64,000 bases of DNA, from the NCBI RefSeq assembly GCF_040529045.1, contig NZ_CP131914.1, forward strand, positions 790,501 through 854,500. Reading direction: 5' to 3'. Origin of the DNA: Xanthomonas indica. GTDB taxonomy: Bacteria > Pseudomonadota > Gammaproteobacteria > Xanthomonadales > Xanthomonadaceae. The notes under the pieces were generated by a model, which ran no database searches, was not told where the DNA came from, and worked only from the letters and a program-made list of their open reading frames with translations. How positions within the stretch are numbered: the first letter of the stretch is position 1; the number at the start of each line of letters is the position of its first letter. A program made the position numbers and the translations under genes. This document shows positions 39,995 to 52,220 of the stretch, piece by piece.

Positions 39995-40274
39995 GTCGCG
40001 TGCGCTTGTCTGAACCGTTCCCGTCTGCCGGTTGAACGGCAAAAACGCAGTGCGCGTTGCACCCGGTTGTAGCGGCGTTTTTGTCAGCCGCTGGCGCACG
40101 CCGGCACACCGAAACAACACCCTTCTTATAAAAAACTAACAAGTGCCTGACGGTCCCGTAATGGACCGCTGGCCCGAGGCATCCATTTCACCCGCCGCGC
40201 CTTCGGTGCGTTCGGGACGTTCGCGCGCGGCGCACAGTGCCGGCGCTTGTCGCACATCACACGAGGTCTTCCCG

Positions 40275-43031
40275 ATGTCCGTAGCAAAGAACAGACTCGC
40301 TCACGCCGTTTGCCTGGCCATGGCGACGCTTCCCGCCACGCTCTACGCGCAGAGCGCTGCACCGGCGGCGTCCGCGTCCGGCGATGCGCCGGTGACCCTG
40401 GACAAGCTGACCGTCACCGGTTCGCTGGTGCGTCGCGTGGATGTGGAGACCGCCAGCCCGGTCGCCGTGGTCGATCGCCAGCAGATCCAGCAGAGCGGCA
40501 AGCAGACCCTGGGCGACCTGTTGCAGGCGCTGCCCGGCATCGCCGGCGCCGCGACCAACCCGCAGGTCAACAATGGCGGCGGCGACGGCGCCTCGACCAT
40601 CTCGCTGCGCGGCCTTGGCGACCAGCGCACGCTGATCCTGATCGACGGCCACCGCATCCAGAACAACGACGTCAACTCGATCCCGGCCAACATGATCGAC
40701 CATGTCGAAGTGCTGAAGGTCGGCGCCTCGGCGATGTACGGCTCCGACGCGATCGGCGGCGTGGTCAACTTCATCCTGCGCAAGAACTTCGAAGGCGGCG
40801 AAGTCTCCGCCAACTACGGCCAGACCAGCCGCGGCGACGGCGCGCGCCAGGGCGGCAGCTTCACCTTCGGCAAGACCTGGGACCGCGGCAACGTCGTGGT
40901 CGGCCTGGACTACAACAAGCAGAAGGACGTCTCCAGCGCCAACCGCGCGTTCTCCAAGTACGCGATGTACCTGTCCAGCGGCAGCGTCTACAAGGGCGGT
41001 TCCAGCCGCACGCCCAGCGGCTACTACAAGCTGCCGGCGGCGACCCTGGCGGCCAACGGCTGCAGCGCCAACGGCGCGCTGACCAGCAACGGCAGCGGCG
41101 GCTACAAGTGCTACAGCGCCTCGGCCGACGCCTACAACTACCAGGCGGAGAACCTGCTGCTGACCCCGCAGCAGCGCGTCGGCGGCTTCGTGCTCGGCAG
41201 CTTCAACATCACCGACTCCATGCAGGCGTACGTCAACGCCTACCACAACCACACCATGTCGAACTTCGCGATCGCGCCGCTGCCGTTCGACGCGCAGAAC
41301 GACGGCATCACCATCGCCGCCAACAACCCGTACAACCCGTTCGGCGTGGAATTCGGCCCCAACGGCTACGAGTTCCGTTCGCGCTTCACCACCCTGGGCC
41401 AGCGCGAAGGCTTCTACGACACCGCCACCGACCAGGACGTGATCGGCCTGAAGGGCGGCATCGGCGACAGCAGTTGGGTGTGGGACACCAACTTCAACTA
41501 CGGTCACTATCGCCAGCGCAACTGGAGCCACGGCTACGTCGACTACGCCGCGCTGCAGAGCGCGATCGACAGCGGGCAGGTCAACATCTTCGACCAGAAC
41601 AACGCCAACACCATCGCCTGGCTGAAGAGCAACGAATCGATTCCGCGCCAGGAAACCACCACCATCATGCGCCAGTGGGAAGCCAGCGCCAACGGTAGCC
41701 TGTGGGAGATGCCGGCCGGCGCCGCGCAGCTGGCGGTGGGCGCGCTGTACCGCAAGGAGAGCCTGAACTCCACGGTGTCGGCCAATGCGCTGATCAACAG
41801 CGACAACACCTGCGCGGTCTCCTCCGAAGCGTGCTCCTCGCCGCTGAGCGGCAGCTTCAACGTCAAGGAGGCGTACGCCCAGCTGTTCGTGCCGGTGCTG
41901 GAGCAGTCCTCCCCGGTCGGCGCGCTCAACCTGACCCTGAGCGACCGCTACTCCGACTACAGCAGCGTGCGCTCGGGCAACAACAGCGCCTCGTTCCAGG
42001 TGGAATGGCGTCCGATCCACGACCTGATGGTGCGCGGCACCGCGGCGCAGGTGTTCCGTGCGCCGACGATCAGCGACATCTACCAGGGCCCGACCGCCGA
42101 CTCGCCGAACTTCGTCGATCCGTGCATCGGCTACAGCGGCAGCGGCCACGCCAATGCCTGCGCCGGCGTGCCGGCCGGCTGGAACGGCTCGGGCCTGTCG
42201 CAGACCAACGGCATCGTGTCCGGGTCCAGCTATGTCGGTTATCAGCTCAAGCCGGAGAAGGGCACCTCCTTCGACTACGGCCTGGTCTACAGCCCCGAGT
42301 ACGTGCCGGGCCTGTCGGTCAACCTCGACTGGTGGAAGGTCAAGCTCAACGACCTGATCCAGTCGATCTCCGCGCAGACCGTGGCCGACCTCTGCTACAA
42401 CGACGACAACAGCCCGTACTGCAGCTACATCCACCGCTACGGCGCGGGTACCGTCAGCGCCGGCAACATCAACTACATCCAGACGCCGGTCGTGAACATC
42501 GGCAAGCTCAACACCCAGGGCATCGACCTCGGCGCCAACTACGTGCTGCCGGAGACCGCGTTCGGCAAGTTCACCGTGGCCGTGGACAGCACCTACCTGC
42601 ACCGCTACGACATCGACACCGGAGACACGGTGGTGCACATGGCCGGCCGCTACAACTCGTCCTACGGCAACTACACGCACTGGCGCGCGCACGCCCAGGT
42701 CGGCTGGAAGCTGGGCAACTGGGATGCGAGCTGGACCACCCGCTGGATCGGCAAGGTGCAGGTCGGCAGTGGCGACCTGAGCCAGAACATGTCCGCCGAT
42801 GCGGCGTTCAAGGGCGTGGTGCTGGACTACGGCAGCTACATGTACCACAACCTGCAGGTGGGCTACGACATGGCCGGGGCCAACCTGCGCCTGGACCTGG
42901 GCGTGGACAACCTGACCAACAAGCAGCCGCCGGTCATGTACCAGAACAACGTGTTGAACGCGAACACCGACGTGAGCACCTACGACACGCTCGGCCGCTA
43001 CTACTGGATGCGGGCCACCTACCGCTTCTGA
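40275..43031 (+). CDS. TonB-dependent outer-membrane receptor
   Basis: 918 residues. Signal peptide about 1-26 (ending LYAQ), Ala-rich linker, plug domain with LDKLTVTGSLVRR as the TonB-box region and TLGDLLQALPGIAG, SLRGLGDQRTLILIDGHRI, VLKVGASAMYGSDAIGGVVN. The remainder is a 22-strand barrel, ending with aromatic YRF. Family: receptors for large or scarce ligands. The motif set (GSxxRR, LIDGHR) is that of the very large xanthomonad/caulobacter TBDT family without a known ligand. ATG 40275 was chosen because it gives the signal peptide; upstream in-frame sequence from 40143 is not convincing. Loop regions contain several Cys pairs (for example CAVSSEAC). Confidence 0.92.
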   Translation: MSVAKNRLAHAVCLAMATLPATLYAQSAAPAASASGDAPVTLDKLTVTGSLVRRVDVETASPVAVVDRQQIQQSGKQTLGDLLQALPGIAGAATNPQVNNGGGDGASTISLRGLGDQRTLILIDGHRIQNNDVNSIPANMIDHVEVLKVGASAMYGSDAIGGVVNFILRKNFEGGEVSANYGQTSRGDGARQGGSFTFGKTWDRGNVVVGLDYNKQKDVSSANRAFSKYAMYLSSGSVYKGGSSRTPSGYYKLPAATLAANGCSANGALTSNGSGGYKCYSASADAYNYQAENLLLTPQQRVGGFVLGSFNITDSMQAYVNAYHNHTMSNFAIAPLPFDAQNDGITIAANNPYNPFGVEFGPNGYEFRSRFTTLGQREGFYDTATDQDVIGLKGGIGDSSWVWDTNFNYGHYRQRNWSHGYVDYAALQSAIDSGQVNIFDQNNANTIAWLKSNESIPRQETTTIMRQWEASANGSLWEMPAGAAQLAVGALYRKESLNSTVSANALINSDNTCAVSSEACSSPLSGSFNVKEAYAQLFVPVLEQSSPVGALNLTLSDRYSDYSSVRSGNNSASFQVEWRPIHDLMVRGTAAQVFRAPTISDIYQGPTADSPNFVDPCIGYSGSGHANACAGVPAGWNGSGLSQTNGIVSGSSYVGYQLKPEKGTSFDYGLVYSPEYVPGLSVNLDWWKVKLNDLIQSISAQTVADLCYNDDNSPYCSYIHRYGAGTVSAGNINYIQTPVVNIGKLNTQGIDLGANYVLPETAFGKFTVAVDSTYLHRYDIDTGDTVVHMAGRYNSSYGNYTHWRAHAQVGWKLGNWDASWTTRWIGKVQVGSGDLSQNMSADAAFKGVVLDYGSYMYHNLQVGYDMAGANLRLDLGVDNLTNKQPPVMYQNNVLNANTDVSTYDTLGRYYWMRATYRF

Positions 43032-43808: not shown

Positions 43809-44384
43809 TCAACCTGCACCATGCAGATGCTCGAACAGGATGGTGCTGCCGATCGCGATCAGCAGCGCGCCGCCGACGATCTCGGCGCGCTTGCCGGCGA
43901 GCGTGCCGAGCGCGCGGCCGAGCATGATGCCCAGGGTGACCATGGTCAGCGTGCACAGGCCGATGATCGCCGCGACCTCGACGATGTTCACGTCGAGGAA
44001 GGCCAGGCCGACGCCGACCGCCATCGCGTCGATGCTGGTGGCAAAGCCGGTGGCGGCCAGGTTCCAGAAGCCGTGGCGCTTGGGCGCGGCGTCCTCGGGC
44101 GCGTCGGTCTCCGGCTTGAGGCCGGCGACGATCATGTGCACGCCCAGCGCGCCGAGCAGGCCGAAGGCGATCCAGTGGTCGAAGGCGACCACGTACTTGG
44201 CCGCGGCCTGGCCCAGCGCCCAGCCCAGCGCCGGGGTCAGCGCCTCGATGCAGCCGAAGATCAGGCCGGCGCGCAGCGCATCGGCCCAGCGCGGCCGCTG
44301 CATCGCCGCGCCCTTGCCGACCGCCGCGGCGAAGGCGTCGGTCGACATGGCGATGCCGAGCAGCAGAATCGAAAGAAACGACAT
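43809..44384 (-). CDS. mntP: MntP manganese efflux pump
   Basis: 191 residues with six membrane helices in two repeats. The family motifs [17 protein letters not shown] (first helix, conserved Asp) and [19 protein letters not shown] (fourth helix, conserved Asp) are present, as is the pattern [14 protein letters not shown]. It exports Mn2+ and protects against manganese excess. ATG 44384 follows a leader carrying a yybP-ykoY element, the known Mn2+-sensing riboswitch, so expression should rise with Mn2+. The gene is convergent with the oxygenase gene and divergent from the valine operon. Confidence 0.93.
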
Positions 44385-44439
44385 GGGGAACCGTACCGGG
44401 ACAGGCGACAACGACGAGCGCGCGCGCCCGGCCGTCGCC

Positions 44440-44570
44440 TTGCGCACTCGCCGCTGGTCTCGCCAACCGAACTGGCTGCCCGTACCACGGCGCATCGGCC
44501 GAGTCTGTTGATACGGGCGCTGTCCGCACCGGGCGGACAGCAGGCTACTCCCCAAGGGGACGCGCAGTCT
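44440..44570 (-). promoter_or_regulatory. yybP-ykoY manganese riboswitch of mntP
   Basis: On the minus strand the leader contains CCTTGGGGAGTAGCCTGC (GGGGAGTAGC at 44553-44544) followed by hairpins, CAACAGACTCGG, and GGCGAGACC (GAGACC at 44461-44456). These are the two conserved loops that dock to form the Mn2+ site in yybP-ykoY RNAs. The element lies about 60-170 bases upstream of the mntP ATG; ends are approximate. Confidence 0.88.
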
Positions 44571-44881
44571 AACAGTCGCCAACTGCAGCGAACATCCCTG
44601 GAACGCACGCGAACCTGCAGCTTCTCTTCTTAGCATCGGCTATAGCGGCACGTGCTGGCGGGCGTCCCGTGCGGGACGTCGCGGCGGCCAGGTGCGGCGG
44701 CGATCGTGCGGCGCGCTGGATGTTGTCGCTGCGTCCTGTACACGCCTGTCGTGCACGCCCGTCGCTGCGGGCGACCGTCGCTTCTGCGCTGTCGGCATTC
44801 GTGCGCTGCGTGCCGGCGCCCACACCGCGCGCTGCGCTGCAGCGTGTTGCCGCCGCCGCGGCGCGACTACACTGGCCACGC
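44571..44881. other. spacer between two divergent riboswitch leaders
   Basis: No gene supported; the GC-rich frames here are not protein-like. It must hold the mntP promoter on the minus strand and the mmsA-operon promoter on the plus strand. Confidence 0.6.
44847..44873 (+). promoter_or_regulatory. possible promoter for the B12 riboswitch operon
   Basis: TTGCCG (44847-44852) and TACACT (44868-44873) are separated by 15 bases; transcription would begin just before the riboswitch at about 44884. Spacing is short, so this is tentative. Confidence 0.35.
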
Positions 44882-44883
44882 TT

Positions 44884-45056
44884 CAGGTGCCTGGTCGTCG
44901 CAAGATGCGCCGGGTGAAACGGGAAGCCGGTCCGATGCCGGCGCTGCCCCCGCAACGGTAGGCGAGAACACCCGACAACAGACCACTGCGCAAGCGGGAA
45001 GGTGTCGGGGTAATGCGATCGCGCATTGCTCGCAAGCCCGGAGACCGGCCTGACGC
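44884..45056 (+). promoter_or_regulatory. cobalamin riboswitch
   Basis: All classic B12-element blocks are present in order: GTGCCTGG at the start, CGGGTGAAACGGGAAGCCGG (44911-44930), TCCGATGCCGGCGCTGCCCC CGCAACGGTA split over 44931-44960 (the B12 box with CCCGCAAC), and AAGCCCGGAGACCGGCCTGA (45033-45052). B12 elements normally lower expression of the downstream gene when adenosylcobalamin is plentiful. The next gene, 140 bases on, is mmsA, an unusual target; the only open frame directly downstream on this strand is that operon. Confidence 0.93.
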
Positions 45057-45196
45057 GGACGTCCTGCGACGTTCTTTCTCGGGTGTTGCGGTGGGCAACC
45101 TGACGAGCCGAACGACGTCGGGGCCCTGCGCCGCGCGTTCGCTTGTCCTGTCCATCGCCGCCCGCCCGGTGGTGATGCGATGAGGAGACAGGACCC

Positions 45197-46720
45197 GTGA
45201 ACCAGATGACCCGGACCCGCGCCGAGGTGGCGACCGTCAAGCTCTTGATCGACGGCGCGTTCGTCGAATCCAGCAGCAGCCAATGGCGCGAGGTGGTCGA
45301 TCCGGCGACCCAGGACGTGCTCGCACGCGTGCCCTTCGCCACCGTCGCGGAAGTCGACGCCGCCGTGGCCGCCGCGCAACGCGCGTTCGCCAGCTGGCGC
45401 AAGACGCCGATCGGCGTCCGCGCGCGGATCTTCCTCACCTACCAGCAGCTGATCCGGGCGCACATGGGCGAGCTGGCGGCGATCCTCACCCGCGAGCAGG
45501 GCAAGACCCTGGCCGACGCGGAAGGCGATGTCTTCCGCGGCCTGGAAGTGGTGGAACAGGCCGCGGCGATCGGCAACCTGCAACTGGGCGAACTGGCCAA
45601 CAACGTCGCCAACGGCGTGGATACCTACACGCTGCTGCAGCCGCTGGGCGTGTGCGCCGGCATCACCCCGTTCAATTTCCCGGCGATGATTCCGCTGTGG
45701 ATGTTCCCGATGGCCATCGCCACCGGCAACACCTTCGTGCTCAAGCCGTCCGAGCAGGATCCGCTGGTGACCATGCGGCTGGTCGAACTGGCCTTGCAGG
45801 CGGGCGTGCCCAAGGGCGTGCTGAACGTCGTCCATGGCGGCGCCGAGGTGGTCGATGCACTGTGCGACCACGCCGACATCAAGGCGCTGTCGTTCGTCGG
45901 CTCCACCAAGGTCGGCACCCACGTGTACCAGCGCGCGGCGCTGGCCGGCAAACGCGTGCAATGCATGATGGGCGCCAAGAACCACGCGGTGGTGTTGCCG
46001 GATGCGCCGCGCGCGCAGACCCTCGACGCGCTGGTGGGCGCGGCCTTCGGCGCCGCCGGCCAGCGTTGCATGGCAGCCTCGACGGTGGTGCTGGTCGGCG
46101 AGGCGCAGCAGTGGATTCCCGACCTGGTGGCCAGGGCGCAGACACTGAAGGTCAACGCCGGCAGCGAACCCGGCACCGACCTGGGCCCGGTGATCTCGCG
46201 CAGCGCGCGCGAGCGCATCGAAGCGTTGATCGCCGCCGGCATCGCCGAGGGCGCGACGCTGGAACTGGACGGGCGCAACCCGACGGTGCCCGGTTTCGCG
46301 CACGGCAACTTCGTCGGCCCGACGATCTTCTCCGGGGTCGCACCGGGCATGCGCATCTACGACGAAGAGATCTTCGGCCCGGTGCTGGTGATCCTGGAGG
46401 CGGCCACGCTGGAGGACGCGATCGCCCTGGTCAACGCCAATCCGAACGGCAACGGCACGGCGCTGTTCACCCAATCCGGCGCCGCCGCACGCAGGTTCCA
46501 GGAGGAGATCGACGTCGGCCAGGTCGGCATCAACGTGCCGATCCCGGTGCCGGTGCCGCTGTTCTCCTTCACCGGGTCGCGCGCCTCCAAGCTCGGCGAC
46601 CTCGGCCCCTACGGCAAGCAGGCGGTGCAGTTCTACACGCAGACCAAGACCGTCACCGCGCGCTGGTTCGACGACGCCGGCGCCGGCCAGGGCGTCAACA
46701 CCACGATCCGCCTGTCGTGA
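45197..46720 (+). CDS. mmsA: methylmalonate-semialdehyde dehydrogenase (CoA-acylating)
   Basis: 507 residues. Converts methylmalonate semialdehyde, NAD+ and CoA to propionyl-CoA, the last step of valine breakdown. Family marks: [43 protein letters not shown] with catalytic Cys291, and [21 protein letters not shown], diagnostic of MmsA rather than other aldehyde dehydrogenases. The GTG at 45197 has GAGGAGAC upstream. It is the first gene of a six-gene overlapped operon behind a cobalamin riboswitch. Confidence 0.93.
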
Positions 46721-47910
46721 TGGCCACGGCGATGCAGTGGCCGCTGGAGCAGCCGGCCGATGCCGGCCTGGACGAGGCGCAGCGCGCCTATCGCGAGGCC
46801 GCGCGCGGCTTCGCCCAGGCCGAACTGGCGCCGCACGCGGCGCGCTGGGATGCGGACGGGATCTTCCCGCGCGAGGCGATCGGCCGGGCCGGCGAACTCG
46901 GTTTCTGCGGCCTGTACGTGGACGAGGACGCCGGCGGCAGCGGACTGTCGCGCCTGGATGCGGCGATCGTGTTCGAGGAACTGGCCGCGGTCGATCCGTC
47001 CACCGCCGCCTTCATCAGCATCCACAACATGGCCACCTGGATGCTGACCCGTTTCGCCACGCCGGCGGTGCGCAAGGACTGGGGCGCGGCGCTGGCCAGC
47101 GGCCGCAAGCTGGCCTCGTACTGCCTGACCGAACCCGGCGCGGGGTCCGACGCGGCCGCGCTGAAGACCCGCGCGGTGCGCGATGGCGACGGCTACCGCA
47201 TCGACGGCAGCAAGGCCTTCATTTCCGGCGCCGGCGCGACCGACCTGCTGGTGGTGATGGCGCGCACCGGCGAGGACGGCGCGCGCGGCATCAGCGCCTT
47301 CGCGGTGCCGGCCGATGCGGCGGGAATCGGCTACGGGCGCAACGAGGACAAGCTGGGCTGGCACAGCCAGCCGACCCGCGCGGTGAGCTTCGACGGCGTG
47401 CGCGTGCCGCTGGCGCATCGCCTGGGCGAGGAGGGCGAGGGCTTCCGCATCGCGATGCGCGGCCTCGACGGCGGCCGCCTCAACATCGCCGCGTGCTCGC
47501 TGGGCGCGGGGCAGGGCGCGCTGGACGCGGCGCGGCGCTATCTGGGCGAGCGTCGCCAGTTCGGCAAGAAGCTCGCCGAGTTCCAGGCCCTGCAGTTCAC
47601 CCTGGCCGACATGGCCACGCAACTGGTCGCTGCGCGGCAGATGGTGCACACCGCTGCGCGCAAGCTCGATGCCGGCGCCCGCGATGCGACGGTGTGGTGC
47701 GCGATGGCCAAGCGCTTCGCCACCGATGCGGGCTTTTCGATCTGCAACGACGCGCTGCAGCTGCATGGCGGTTACGGCTACATCCGCGAGTATCCGGTCG
47801 AACGCCTGCTGCGCGACAGCCGCGTGCACCAGATCCTGGAGGGCACCAACGAAATCATGCGCGTGATCGTCGCGCGCCACCTGCTGAACACCGAAGAGGA
47901 ATTGCGATGA
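46720..47910 (+). CDS. acyl-CoA dehydrogenase, probably isobutyryl-CoA dehydrogenase
   Basis: 396 residues, FAD-dependent. The ATG overlaps the mmsA stop codon by one base (TGATG). Seen: SYCLTEPGAGSDAAALKTRA, the FAD and substrate region; ERRQFGKKLAEFQALQF; and LHGGYGYIREYPVERLLRDS followed by ILEGTNEIMRVIVARHLL, where the catalytic Glu of short-chain enzymes is in EGTNE. In the valine pathway this enzyme oxidises isobutyryl-CoA to methacrylyl-CoA; operon context gives the specificity. Confidence 0.9.
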   Translation: MATAMQWPLEQPADAGLDEAQRAYREAARGFAQAELAPHAARWDADGIFPREAIGRAGELGFCGLYVDEDAGGSGLSRLDAAIVFEELAAVDPSTAAFISIHNMATWMLTRFATPAVRKDWGAALASGRKLASYCLTEPGAGSDAAALKTRAVRDGDGYRIDGSKAFISGAGATDLLVVMARTGEDGARGISAFAVPADAAGIGYGRNEDKLGWHSQPTRAVSFDGVRVPLAHRLGEEGEGFRIAMRGLDGGRLNIAACSLGAGQGALDAARRYLGERRQFGKKLAEFQALQFTLADMATQLVAARQMVHTAARKLDAGARDATVWCAMAKRFATDAGFSICNDALQLHGGYGYIREYPVERLLRDSRVHQILEGTNEIMRVIVARHLLNTEEELR

Positions 47911-48716
47911 GCGTTGCCGACACCTCCTACCGCAACCGGGACTGGACCGGGCTGGGCCTGCAGATCGACGGCCACACCGCCGTGGTCACCCTGTCCAATC
48001 CGCCGGCCAACACCTGGACCGTGCAGAGCCTGCGCGCGCTAGGCGAGCTGGTCGGCGCGCTGGACGCGGATCGCGAGATCTATGCCCTGGTACTGGTCGG
48101 TGCCGGCGAGAAGTTCTTCAGCGCCGGTGCCGACCTCAACCAGTTCGCCGACGGCGACAAGGCGCTGGCGCGCGAGGCGGCGCGGCGTTTCGGCGAGGCC
48201 TTCGAGGCGCTGAGCGGATTCCGCGGCGTCAGCATCGCCGCGATCAACGGCTATGCGATGGGCGGCGGACTCGAAGCGGCCTTGGCCTGCGACCTGCGCA
48301 TTGCCGAGGCGCAGGCGCAGATGGCCCTGCCCGAGGCGACGGTGGGCCTGCTGCCCTGCGCCGGCGGCACCCAGCACCTGCCGCGGCTGGTCGGCGAGGG
48401 TTGGGCCAAGCGCATGATCCTGCTCGGCGAACGCGTCGATGCCGAGACCGCGCTGCGGATCGGCCTGGTCGAAGAGGTGGTGCCGACCGGGCAGGCGCTG
48501 GCGCGCGCGCTGGAGTGGGCGGCCAAGGCGGCGCGGCAGAGTCCGATCAGCGTGGCCGCGGCCAAGCGCCTGGTGCAGGCGACCCGCACGCAGTCGCATG
48601 CGAGCGCATTGGTCAGCGAACGCGAGGCGTTCGTGGACCTGTTCGACAGCGCCGACCAGGCCGAGGGCGTCAATGCCTTCCTCGGCAAGCGCGCCCCTGT
48701 ATGGAGCAACGCGTGA
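47907..48716 (+). CDS. enoyl-CoA hydratase (methacrylyl-CoA hydratase role)
   Basis: 269 residues of the crotonase fold; overlaps the previous stop by ATGA. The CoA-binding ring and oxyanion hole are visible in KFFSAGADLNQFADGD and AINGYAMGGGLEAALACDLRI, with the catalytic-Glu segment ALPEATVGLLPCAGGTQHLP. In this operon it would hydrate methacrylyl-CoA to 3-hydroxyisobutyryl-CoA. Specificity is inferred from neighbours. Confidence 0.88.
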   Translation: MSVADTSYRNRDWTGLGLQIDGHTAVVTLSNPPANTWTVQSLRALGELVGALDADREIYALVLVGAGEKFFSAGADLNQFADGDKALAREAARRFGEAFEALSGFRGVSIAAINGYAMGGGLEAALACDLRIAEAQAQMALPEATVGLLPCAGGTQHLPRLVGEGWAKRMILLGERVDAETALRIGLVEEVVPTGQALARALEWAAKAARQSPISVAAAKRLVQATRTQSHASALVSEREAFVDLFDSADQAEGVNAFLGKRAPVWSNA

Positions 48717-49888
48717 GCGCCTCCGCTGCCGACGATGCCGCGGTGCTGTTCGAGATGCGGGCCGCGGGCGATGGCCGTCGCATCGGGATCGCCACGCTCA
48801 ATGCGCCGCGCACCCTCAACGGGCTGTCGCTGGAGATGGCGCGCCTGCTGGATGCGCAACTGACGCAATGGGCGCAGGACCCGACGCTGGCGCTGGTGGT
48901 GCTGCAGGGCGCGGGCGAGAAGGCGTTCTGCGCCGGCGGCGACCTCCATGGCCTGTATCGCGGGATGCGTGAGCGTGTCGCGCACGGCACTACCACGCCG
49001 GCGGACCCGCGCGGCGATGCGCACGCCGAGGCCTTCTTCGAAACCGAGTACCGCCTCGACTACCGCATCCACACCTTCCCCAAGCCGGTGCTGTGCTGGG
49101 GCCACGGCATCGTGATGGGCGGCGGGATCGGGCTGATGGCGGGCGCCAGCCACCGCGTGGTCGGCGAACGGTCCCGGCTCGCCTTCCCCGAGATCAGCAT
49201 CGGCCTGTTCCCCGACGTCGGCGGCAGCTGGCTGCTGTCGCGGGTGCCGGCGCAGGCGGGCCTGTTCCTGGCGCTGACCGGCGCGCCGCTCGGTGCCGGC
49301 GATGCGATCTACGCTGGCATGGCCGATGTGCACGTGCCGGAGGCCGCGCGCGCGGCGGTGCTGGCCGCCCTGCAGGAGACGCCTTGGCCGGCCGCTGCGC
49401 AGGACACGGCGCGCGCGCTGGACGCGCTGCTGGCCCGCTTCGCCACGCCGGCGCCGGCCGGTCCGTTGCAGCGGCACGCCGCGGCGATCGCCGATGCCTG
49501 CGCGCATCCCACGCTGGACGCGGTGGTGGCGGCGATCGCCGGCCTCGATGCCGCCGACCCATGGATCGCGACGGCACAGGCCACGCTGGCCGCCGGCGCG
49601 CCGGGCTCGGCACGGCTGGCCTTCGAACTGCAGCGGCGCGCCGCATCGCTGTCCTTGGCCGAGGTGTTCCGCCAGGAGTACACCGTGGCCCTGCACTGCA
49701 CCGCGCATGGCGACTTCGCCGAAGGCATCCGCGCGTTGCTGATCGACAAGGACCGCGCCCCGCGCTGGCAGCCGGCCACCCTCGACGCCGCGTCCGCGGC
49801 GTGGGCGCGCGACTTCTTCCATGCGCCCTGGCCGGCGCAGGCCCACCCCCTGGCCGATCTCGGCCGTCACACGGAGACCCGCGCATGA
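48713..49888 (+). CDS. 3-hydroxyisobutyryl-CoA hydrolase
   Basis: 391 residues of the crotonase superfamily, HIBCH subgroup. Seen: [44 protein letters not shown] split across residues about 120-150, [20 protein letters not shown] with the hydrolase-type Glu and Asp, and the late [19 protein letters not shown] typical of HIBCH. The GTG at 48713 overlaps the previous stop (GTGA) and has GGAG 6 bases upstream; an ATG at 48701 is possible but has no ribosome site. Releases 3-hydroxyisobutyrate for MmsB. Confidence 0.9.
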
Positions 49889-50775
49889 GCCGGATCGCCT
49901 TCATCGGCCTGGGCAACATGGGCGGCCCGATGGCCGTCAACCTGGTCAGGGCCGGGCACGTGGTGCGCGTGTTCGACCTCAACCCCGCCGCCCTCGCGGC
50001 CGCCGCCGCCGCCGGCGCGCACGCCGCCGACAGTGCGGTGGCCGCGGTCGCCGAGGCCGAGGTGGTGATCTCGATGCTGCCGGCCAGCCGCCACGTCGAA
50101 GCCCTGTTCCTCGGTACGGAGGGACTGCTCGCGCACATTCCCGCGGGCGCCCTGCTCATCGACAGCAGCACGATTGCGCCCGCCTCGGCGCGCACGCTGG
50201 CCGCCGCGGCAGTGGCGCGTGGCCTGCAGCCGCTGGATGCGCCGGTGTCCGGCGGTACCGCCGGCGCCGCCGCGGGCACCTTGACCTTCATCGTCGGCGG
50301 CGCGGCCGCCACCCTGGAGCGCGCGCGCCCAGTGCTGGAGGCGATGGGCCGCAACATCTTCCACATGGGCGAGGCCGGTGCCGGGCAGGTCGCCAAGCTC
50401 TGCAACAACATGGCGCTGGGGGTGATCATGGCCGCGACCGCCGAAGCGCTGGCGCTGGGCGCGGCGCATGGCCTGGATCCGGCGGCGCTGTCGCGGATGA
50501 TGGCGGTCAGCACCGGCCGCAGCTGGGCCACCGAGGTCTGCAACCCATGGCCGGGCGTGCTGGACCAGGCGCCGGCCTCGCGCGGCTACCGCGGCGGCTT
50601 CGGCAGCGACCTGATGCTCAAGGACCTGGGCCTGGCGGCGGAAGCGGCGATGGCCACCGGCGCGGCGATCCCGCTCGGCGAACTGGCGCGCAACCTGTAC
50701 GCGCTGAACCGCCGCCAGGGCCGCGGCGCCCTGGATTTCTCCAGCGTCGTCCAGCTGCTCGCGGAGGCGCCATGA
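49885..50775 (+). CDS. mmsB: 3-hydroxyisobutyrate dehydrogenase
   Basis: 296 residues, NAD+-dependent, oxidising 3-hydroxyisobutyrate to methylmalonate semialdehyde, the substrate of MmsA. Seen: Rossmann start [20 protein letters not shown], substrate loop [20 protein letters not shown], and catalytic Lys in [14 protein letters not shown], then [14 protein letters not shown]. Overlaps its upstream and downstream neighbours by ATGA, so all genes of this operon are translationally coupled. Confidence 0.93.
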
Positions 50776-51437
50776 GCACTGTCCGCGAGCGCCTGACCCT
50801 GCCCGGCGGCAGTGGACGCCTGCTGCTGCACTCGTGCTGCGCGCCGTGCTCGGGCGAGCTGATGGAATCGTTCGTGGAGTCCGGCATCGACTACACGGTG
50901 TTCTTCTACAACCCCAACATCCACCCGGCCAGGGAATACGAGCTGCGCAAGCAGGAGAACATCCGCTTCGCCGAGCAACATGGCGTGCCCTTCGTCGATG
51001 CCGACTACGACACCGACAATTGGTTCGCGCGTGCCCGGGGCATGGAGAACGCCCCCGAGCGCGGCATCCGCTGCACCATGTGCTTCGACATGCGCTTCGA
51101 GCGCACTGCGCTGTATGCGCACGAGCACGGCTATGCGGTGATGACCAGTTCGCTGGGCATTTCGCGCTGGAAGGACATGCGCCAGATCACCGACAGCGGC
51201 ATCCGCGCGGCCGCACCGTACCCGGACCTGACCTACTGGGACTACAACTGGCGCAAGCACGGCGGCGCCGCGCGCATGGTCGAGATCAGCAAGCGCGAGC
51301 GCTTCTACCAGCAGGAGTACTGCGGTTGCGTGTATTCGCTGCGCGACACCAATCGCCACCGCCGCGCGCAGGGCCGCGAGCGGATCAAGCTCGGCGTGCT
51401 GTTCTATGGCGACGACGAGGGCAAGCCGTCGGACTGA
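50772..51437 (+). CDS. queH: epoxyqueuosine reductase QueH (cobalamin-independent)
   Basis: 221 residues of the DUF208 family. QueH performs the last step of queuosine synthesis in tRNA, reducing epoxyqueuosine, and replaces the B12-dependent enzyme QueG. Seen: N-terminal [11 protein letters not shown] (Cys22, Cys23, Cys26), [32 protein letters not shown], and [15 protein letters not shown], giving the full set of cluster and active-site cysteines. The ATG overlaps the mmsB stop (ATGA), so queH is the last gene of an operon headed by a cobalamin riboswitch. That placement fits a B12-saving role. Confidence 0.92.
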
Positions 51438-51554
51438 GCCTCGCCTGCAGGCCGGACACCGGCGCGGGACCGCGATGCGGCGCGCCACGTGCACCTTGGC
51501 GCGCGGGAGGGCGGAGCGGTAGACGCAAACCGGGGCCGCGCGAGCGCTGCCGGC

Positions 51555-52220
51555 TCAGTCCTCTTCCGGCGGCAGCACGATGGCGTCGCTGTCGATGGCC
51601 AGCTTGCCGGCCAGCAGCACCGCCTGGGTGCGGTTGGTGACGCCGAGCTTGCGCAGGATCGCGGTGACGTGCGCCTTGATCGTGGCCTCGGACACGCCCA
51701 GGTCGTAGGCGATCTGCTTGTTGAGGCTGCCGGCGCCGAGCATCTGCAGCACGCGGAACTGCTGCGGGGTCAGTTCGCGCAGGCGCTGGCCGACCTCGCG
51801 CTCGGCGCGGTCGGTGGGCGGCACGTTGTGCGCTTCCGGCGGCGCCCAGTGTTCGCCGTCCAGCACCGTGCCCAGGGCCAGGCCGATGGTGTCCGAATCG
51901 GCCGACTTGGGAATGAAGCCGAACGCGCCGTGGTCCAGCGCGCGCCGCATCACCGTCGGCTCCTCGCGCGCGGACACCACCACCACCGGCAACTGCGGAT
52001 GCAGCGCGCGCATGTGCACCAGCGCGCTGAAGCCCTGCGCGCCGGGCATGTTGAGATCCATCAGCAGCAGATCGGCATCGGCATGGCGCTCGGCCAGCGC
52101 GTACAGCGTCTCGACACTGTCGGCCTCGTACAACTGCACCCCGGGCATCACCCGCTGCACCGCCCCGCGCAGCGCCTCGCGGAACAGGGGATGGTCGTCG
52201 GCGATCAGCAGGGTGGGCAT
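51555..52220 (-). CDS. NarL/LuxR-type response regulator, CrbR/ErdR-like
   Basis: 221 residues. Receiver domain (about 1-120): acidic pair in LLIADDHPLFREAL, phosphoacceptor Asp55 in LLLMDLNMPG, switch residues in VVVVSAREEP and lysine in GFIPKSADS. A LuxR-type helix-turn-helix follows (about 150-210; LTPQQFRVLQMLGAGSLNKQ, SEATIKAHVTAILRKLGVTN). It lies 155 bases downstream of acs on the same strand. CrbR/ErdR regulators adjoin or control acs in Vibrio and Pseudomonas; the matching symporter-domain kinase is at 34584-38015. Direct control of acs is inferred. Confidence 0.87.
   Translation of the reverse strand: MPTLLIADDHPLFREALRGAVQRVMPGVQLYEADSVETLYALAERHADADLLLMDLNMPGAQGFSALVHMRALHPQLPVVVVSAREEPTVMRRALDHGAFGFIPKSADSDTIGLALGTVLDGEHWAPPEAHNVPPTDRAEREVGQRLRELTPQQFRVLQMLGAGSLNKQIAYDLGVSEATIKAHVTAILRKLGVTNRTQAVLLAGKLAIDSDAIVLPPEED

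Follow-up and report, generated by a model that had tools for sequence, protein, structure and literature searches.

Cobalamin (vitamin B12) riboswitches are known ahead of metE and nrdAB, where B12 silences a B12-free stand-in. Operons for valine degradation have also been described, and in Cupriavidus necator knock-outs showed that growth on valine and isobutyrate requires the mmsA3 operon; an AraC-type regulator gene lies upstream of it, and no riboswitch is described in the part of the paper available to us (PMC6572756). In Caenorhabditis elegans, similar enzyme classes form a propionate shunt that is likewise repressed by B12 (PMC4951191), and QueH is an established substitute for the cobamide-dependent epoxyqueuosine reductase (PMC6461909). 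All papers are cited here for their available parts. We analysed a stretch of 64,000 nucleotides of Xanthomonas indica (contig NZ_CP131914.1, positions 790,501 to 854,500), called the window below; coordinates are those of the window unless stated otherwise. It harbours a cobalamin riboswitch followed by an operon whose genes are equivalent to those of the C. necator mmsA3 operon (PMC6572756), with queH at its end. The aptamer family and the logic are those of the metE and nrdAB riboswitches, both of which are also found in X. indica. Unlike these, the operon combines a five-enzyme route with an unrelated tRNA enzyme, and the two would replace B12 enzymes of separate pathways. We propose, with a probability of about 0.72, that this is a B12-independence operon which B12 switches off, the valine genes bypassing the B12 enzyme IcmF and queH bypassing QueG.

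The riboswitch aptamer (44868..45067, plus strand) gave a full-length match to RF00174, with 108.7 bits against a gathering score of 31.5 (E 2.7e-26, model positions 1-189), and it is the sole Rfam match above gathering score in the window. A first-pass annotation of this DNA, made from the letters alone, had placed a B12 element at 44884-45056 and proposed an Rfam search as a check; the match bears it out, and its bounds were right to within some 20 bases. The mmsA gene for methylmalonate-semialdehyde dehydrogenase (45197..46720; TIGR01722 (MMSDH), 732 bits, cut-off 448.5) starts 129 bases after the 3' end of the aptamer, and the leader position suits an expression-platform role. It is followed on the same plus strand by genes for an acyl-CoA dehydrogenase, probably an isobutyryl-CoA dehydrogenase (46720..47910; Pfam acyl-CoA dehydrogenase domains), an enoyl-CoA, probably methacrylyl-CoA, hydratase (47907..48716; NF006566, 434 bits, cut-off 286), a 3-hydroxyisobutyryl-CoA hydrolase (48713..49888; NF004127, 347 bits, cut-off 274), the 3-hydroxyisobutyrate dehydrogenase (HIBADH) MmsB (49885..50775; TIGR01692, 398 bits, cut-off 291.6) and the predicted cobalamin-independent epoxyqueuosine reductase QueH (50772..51437; PF02677, 210 bits, cut-off 23.5). 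The six successive genes overlap by 1, 4, 4, 4 and 4 bases, in agreement with the annotated order of mmsA first, five further overlapping genes and queH last. The five genes predicted for distal valine degradation (dehydrogenase, hydratase, hydrolase, HIBADH and MMSDH) are thus found together. The probable substrate of the dehydrogenase is deduced from its best solved relative, the human isobutyryl-CoA dehydrogenase ACAD8 (1RX0, 449 bits; runner-up, 317). The operon QueH aligns to the solved QueH 7LC5 and retains the Cys motifs CCAP, RCxxC and YCGC.

The X. indica genome (4.8 Mb, single contig) was searched for the enzymes that the operon would replace. It encodes IcmF, a fused mutase/GTPase (NF045497, 1658 bits, curated cut-off 1500) whose best solved relative is C. 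metallidurans IcmF (4XC6), and QueG (499 bits). Aptamer, operon genes, IcmF and QueG are all directly observed in this one genome, and only the IcmF route, not the operon route, requires B12. The first-pass annotation had rightly taken QueH for a B12-independent stand-in for QueG: QueG is encoded in the same genome, and queH genes of relatives lie under B12 riboswitches. Its other link to B12, from the propionyl-CoA made by MmsA to a B12-dependent mutase, did not hold. Among the enzymes that it had named for a genome check, QueG was found and so was 2-methylcitrate synthase (NF009006, 708 bits), and the only PF01642 mutase detected was IcmF, so that methylmalonyl-CoA mutase was rejected as the bypassed enzyme. 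The better metabolic link lies upstream of propionyl-CoA, since IcmF and the operon dehydrogenase share isobutyryl-CoA. The annotated picture of a B12-responsive unit joining branched-chain catabolism to queuosine is hence retained for its apparent B12 response; the joining is better read as two B12 bypasses on one transcript.

The five valine genes might instead form a B12-free propionate shunt as in C. elegans, leading from propionyl-CoA to acetyl-CoA via acrylyl-CoA and 3-hydroxypropionate. The enzyme classes are alike step for step and five worm shunt genes are B12-repressed (PMC4951191), MmsA enzymes can use both semialdehydes (PMC6572756), and the top NCBIfam model for the operon dehydrogenase is an acryloyl-CoA reductase (363 bits, under the cut-off of 640). 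Nevertheless, with IcmF as the sole PF01642 mutase found, no methylmalonyl-CoA route to bypass is seen, the methylcitrate synthase is present, and the dehydrogenase is by far nearest to isobutyryl-CoA dehydrogenase. Furthermore, the fourth step in the worm uses an ADHFE1-type enzyme rather than MmsB, and the worm shunt answers to propionate via transcription (PMC4951191); X. indica has an RNA aptamer instead, and IcmF is probably the enzyme that is bypassed. We regard a propionate shunt as unlikely.

Under the proposed bypass of IcmF and QueG, the ligand response and the fluxes, as read from the sequence, probably run as follows. With plentiful B12, adenosylcobalamin (AdoCbl) would bind the aptamer, with a hairpin holding the mmsA start region shut; IcmF would convert valine-derived isobutyryl-CoA to butyryl-CoA, and QueG would reduce epoxyqueuosine. 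When B12 is scarce, mmsA would be translated and then the overlapping genes in turn, the classical route, which needs no B12, would oxidise isobutyryl-CoA to propionyl-CoA, with methylcitrate probably next, and QueH would substitute for QueG. As the B12 riboswitch heads genes that appear to bypass two B12 enzymes, the stand-ins are probably made only when B12 is short. IcmF and the operon would compete for one metabolite, since isobutyryl-CoA would also be the entry substrate of the operon. Repression would extend to queH because the six overlapping reading frames are expected to couple its translation to that of mmsA.

The leader contains a candidate expression platform, a hairpin at 45137..45202 (plus strand; -36.1 kcal/mol, z -5.4) that none of 200 shuffles equalled in stability. 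Its arms pair 45145-45152 with 45187-45194 and 45137-45142 with 45197-45202, the last of which contains the mmsA start codon. This predicted fold suggests translational OFF control of mmsA. A linker block with the consensus CTCGGGTGTTGCGGYGGGCAACCNGRCGAGC (45078..45108, plus strand), a candidate switching element, is common, with variation, to 17 aligned riboswitch-mmsA leaders (alignment A3), in which the hairpin arms are poorly aligned. The median folding z was -2.4 in 20 leaders with a riboswitch versus -0.65 in 20 without. A pairing of the linker block with the 5' arm of the hairpin was also considered; it beat the shuffle mean in 16/17 leaders, with at most 5% of shuffles as good in 5/17, and is not claimed here. 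The first-pass annotation had named a terminator and a separate promoter between riboswitch and mmsA as evidence that would refute its reading. A consensus scan of 44500-51800 for sigma-70-like promoters, other promoter types being outside its scope, returned none. The same interval contains four terminator-like sites versus 2.1 in shuffles (sd 1.8), and one of them, at 45054-45068, is the 3' edge of the aptamer itself.

Riboswitch and mutase were compared over 149 genomes of the window's family and 147 of a sister family (G and L numbers are our handles for genomes and loci). Genes 77-100% identical to the window's mmsA were classed as valine-type; 25 next-scoring or partial loci that were sampled showed 47-53%. 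Valine-type mmsA occurs in 26/149 family genomes, namely 25 loci (L051-L075) and a split copy in G092. A PF01642 mutase was detected in 124 of the 149 and undetected in 25. The valine operon is present in 6 of the 124 mutase-bearing genomes versus 20 of the 25 mutase-lacking ones; the five with neither (G007, G024, G041, G047 and G080) are 72-86% complete. A riboswitch precedes valine-type mmsA in all six genomes of the family that have both operon and mutase, and in none of the 20 that have the operon without the mutase. In the sister family, the 11 genomes with valine-type mmsA (L200-L210; 11/147) all have riboswitch and mutase, a figure that gives no contrast since the mutase is near-universal there (29 of the 30 genomes tested). 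Among named loci, Luteibacter L112 and Lysobacter L113 and L116 have both (3/3), and the Luteibacter metagenome-assembled genome (MAG) L115 has neither (0/1). Overall, valine-type operons carry the riboswitch in 20/20 genomes with the mutase and 0/21 without, L114 and L117, apparently the same as G593 and G541, being counted once each. Three mmsA genes without a riboswitch (L053, L063 and L249) have faint model hits upstream (15.6-16.6 bits), which we took for noise. In G138, an amino-acid dehydrogenase gene lies near icmF (L198:11877-12980; best model tryptophan dehydrogenase ScyB, 410 bits, under cut-off), which would fit branched-chain amino-acid use.

A tree made by a quick method from 40 valine-type MmsA proteins, 20 with and 20 without the riboswitch (G092 left out), groups all 20 proteins of riboswitch-led operons with L115 (SH-aLRT 96), and within this clade the two families are interleaved. 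The riboswitch label requires two changes on this tree and terminal queH five; mutase and riboswitch labels were entered as identical, as detected. As the mmsA genes with a riboswitch group together, a single event may account for most of the riboswitch/mutase pattern. The clade, mixing two families, would also fit an accident of gene order or of horizontal transfer, with B12 control of little metabolic meaning. However, the aptamer and the linker block are conserved over 17 leaders, operon and mutase are mostly mutually exclusive in the window's family, and the riboswitch is present where both occur; we find such an accident very improbable.

In the 149 genomes of the window's family, QueH was found in 14 and QueG in 143, with both in 13 of the 14 QueH genomes. 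A riboswitch precedes the queH-bearing gene set in 10/14, and all 10 of these have QueG. In six of the 14, queH terminates the valine operon; one of these, at the end of the riboswitch-valine operon of G048, is nevertheless broken into two frames (L042:6356-7004). In three Stenotrophomonas genomes (g29, including G071 and G098), the riboswitch directly precedes a lone queH, and their own valine operon has no riboswitch. G001 has a MetE-like gene (NF005085, 416 bits) between riboswitch and queH, and an RF01057 (SAH) riboswitch was detected near this unit on the opposite strand (L038:4694-4803, 44.6 bits). In G018, the only QueH genome of the family without QueG, a riboswitch lies downstream of queH; it overlaps the start of the next frame, of 677 residues (L040:8845-11807). 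The queH locus of G030 is interrupted by the contig end.

These distributions bear on the possibility that the riboswitch serves queH, with the valine genes as mere passengers. In the window's family, queH is the last gene of all six riboswitch-mmsA operons and of none of the 20 riboswitch-less ones, and it is under B12 riboswitches in further gene orders. The idea that the riboswitch tracks queH only, which arose from these counts, was abandoned on the sister family, where 6 of the 11 riboswitch-valine operons lack queH within the stretch read. The riboswitch is therefore not for queH alone, and we hold the passenger explanation to be very unlikely.

Several findings besides the lack of contrast in the sister family weigh against a B12 switch that bypasses IcmF and QueG. 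In X. indica IcmF, a Tyr (GSYPYT) replaces the Phe (GSFPYT) of C. metallidurans IcmF, and a Gln is conserved (KEDQxQNTCIF). We take this Phe and Gln of the substrate pocket to mark substrate choice; with the Tyr in place of the Phe, the IcmF substrate is not certain. IcmF was identified by NCBIfam in three genomes and the mutase elsewhere by PF01642 alone. Five of the mutase absences in the window's family were assigned by elimination, beyond the matches listed, and of the 20 operon-bearing genomes without a mutase, 4 are 85-90% complete. The riboswitch/mutase match is perfect by count but comes down to about two events: on the mmsA tree there are just two independent pairs, both concordant, and one depends on a MAG of unknown completeness. 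In the window's leader, the Shine-Dalgarno sequence GAGGA sits in a bulge of the hairpin rather than in its stem. The scored Shine-Dalgarno sequence is paired in 15/20 riboswitch leaders, yet also in 9/20 without riboswitch. Duplex energies were better than 95% of shuffles in 6/17 leaders for the hairpin arms and 5/17 for the linker pairing. Lastly, no riboswitch was found near queH in G017 and G092, which have QueG, nor in G370, G438 and G482 (contig of 3.1 kb), which are outside the family and have both QueH and QueG.

The rest of the B12 regulon of X. indica is in line with the proposed bypass. The genome has four cobalamin riboswitches, ahead of the mmsA operon, of nrdAB (963995 of the genome contig; a ribonucleotide reductase pair that needs no B12, accompanied by a flavodoxin gene), of metE (997979, minus strand) and of a btuB-type receptor gene (1362170, minus strand). 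metE and metH obey the same B12-bypass logic, MetH being detected over its C-terminal two thirds (1232 bits), and nrdAB probably does so too. In a riboswitch tree where several long branches meet, the mmsA riboswitches are set apart from the rest by one branch (SH-aLRT 93), and the riboswitches of Stenotrophomonas queH and metE-queH group with that of X. indica metE (93). The interleaving of families on the mmsA tree alone suggests transfer between them. We give even odds to a wider scenario, in which a mobile B12-independence cassette has moved between two families of the order, the riboswitch being kept only in hosts that still have IcmF, and queH has come under B12 riboswitches on at least three occasions. 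One recruitment may have been to the tail of the valine operon, another to a site following riboswitch-metE (or following the riboswitch directly, perhaps once metE had been lost), and a third to a site following a MetE-like gene.

In the literature searched, no B12 riboswitch was found to control a valine operon or queH, as far as the available parts of PMC3766115, PMC9600662, PMC2667541, PMC4951191, PMC6572756, PMC11071462, PMC10481361, PMC6461909, PMC8123684 and PMC7857596 go; an earlier listing in older B12-regulon papers, supplements or regulon databases is possible. What is new relative to the metE and nrdAB riboswitches is the targets, and that a single transcript combines two unrelated bypasses. 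The data point to a counterpart of IcmF that is a whole route rather than an isozyme, under B12's own riboswitch. If true, the B12 regulon would gain two kinds of target, the presence of both QueG and QueH in some bacteria would be explained, and B12 would offer a simple handle on branched-chain acyl-CoA fate and tRNA queuosine. As a rule for reading genomes, a B12 riboswitch on a seemingly unrelated operon may hint at a B12 enzyme with the same job elsewhere.

Further queH loci were found in a class-wide draw of 369 genomes, 58 of which have QueH; 53 of the 56 outside the window's family have no QueG over the cut-off. Rfam detected no riboswitch within 1.5 kb of queH at 30 loci outside the family. 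In G017 and G092, queH adjoins genes for a MetR-like regulator, MesX, MesD and an FMN reductase, and the mesX/mesD set codes for a B12-independent, oxygen-requiring methionine synthase (PMC7857596). The same neighbours (the regulator being of the LysR type) stand beside queH at L039:7437-11939, L046, L148, L157, L161, L163, L167, L174, L175, L179 and L183, with L167 on the same contig as L039 and L161 on that of L046. The queH genes of Xanthomonas and some further Proteobacteria thus neighbour a B12-independent methionine synthase also where there is no riboswitch.

Upstream of the X. indica operon lie an MntP manganese efflux pump gene (43812-44636, minus strand) and a TonB-dependent receptor gene (40143-43031, plus strand), neither with an Rfam family above gathering score. 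Among the best 80 of at least 571 named QueH loci, 59 showed no riboswitch with a model built from the riboswitches of this order, which may miss distant ones. Twenty are riboswitch-led, comprising 5 valine operons, 9 lone queH genes and 6 metE-queH pairs; Devosia L187, where the riboswitch leads metE some kilobases ahead of queH, was excluded from them. The riboswitch-metE-queH order is seen in the Stenotrophomonas-like loci L118, L124, L128, L142, L169 and L173, of which the L128 contig carries the title Bacillus subtilis, perhaps through mislabelling or contamination. At L236:2744-12240, a riboswitch-valine-queH operon is convergent with a second unit, in which a riboswitch precedes metE.

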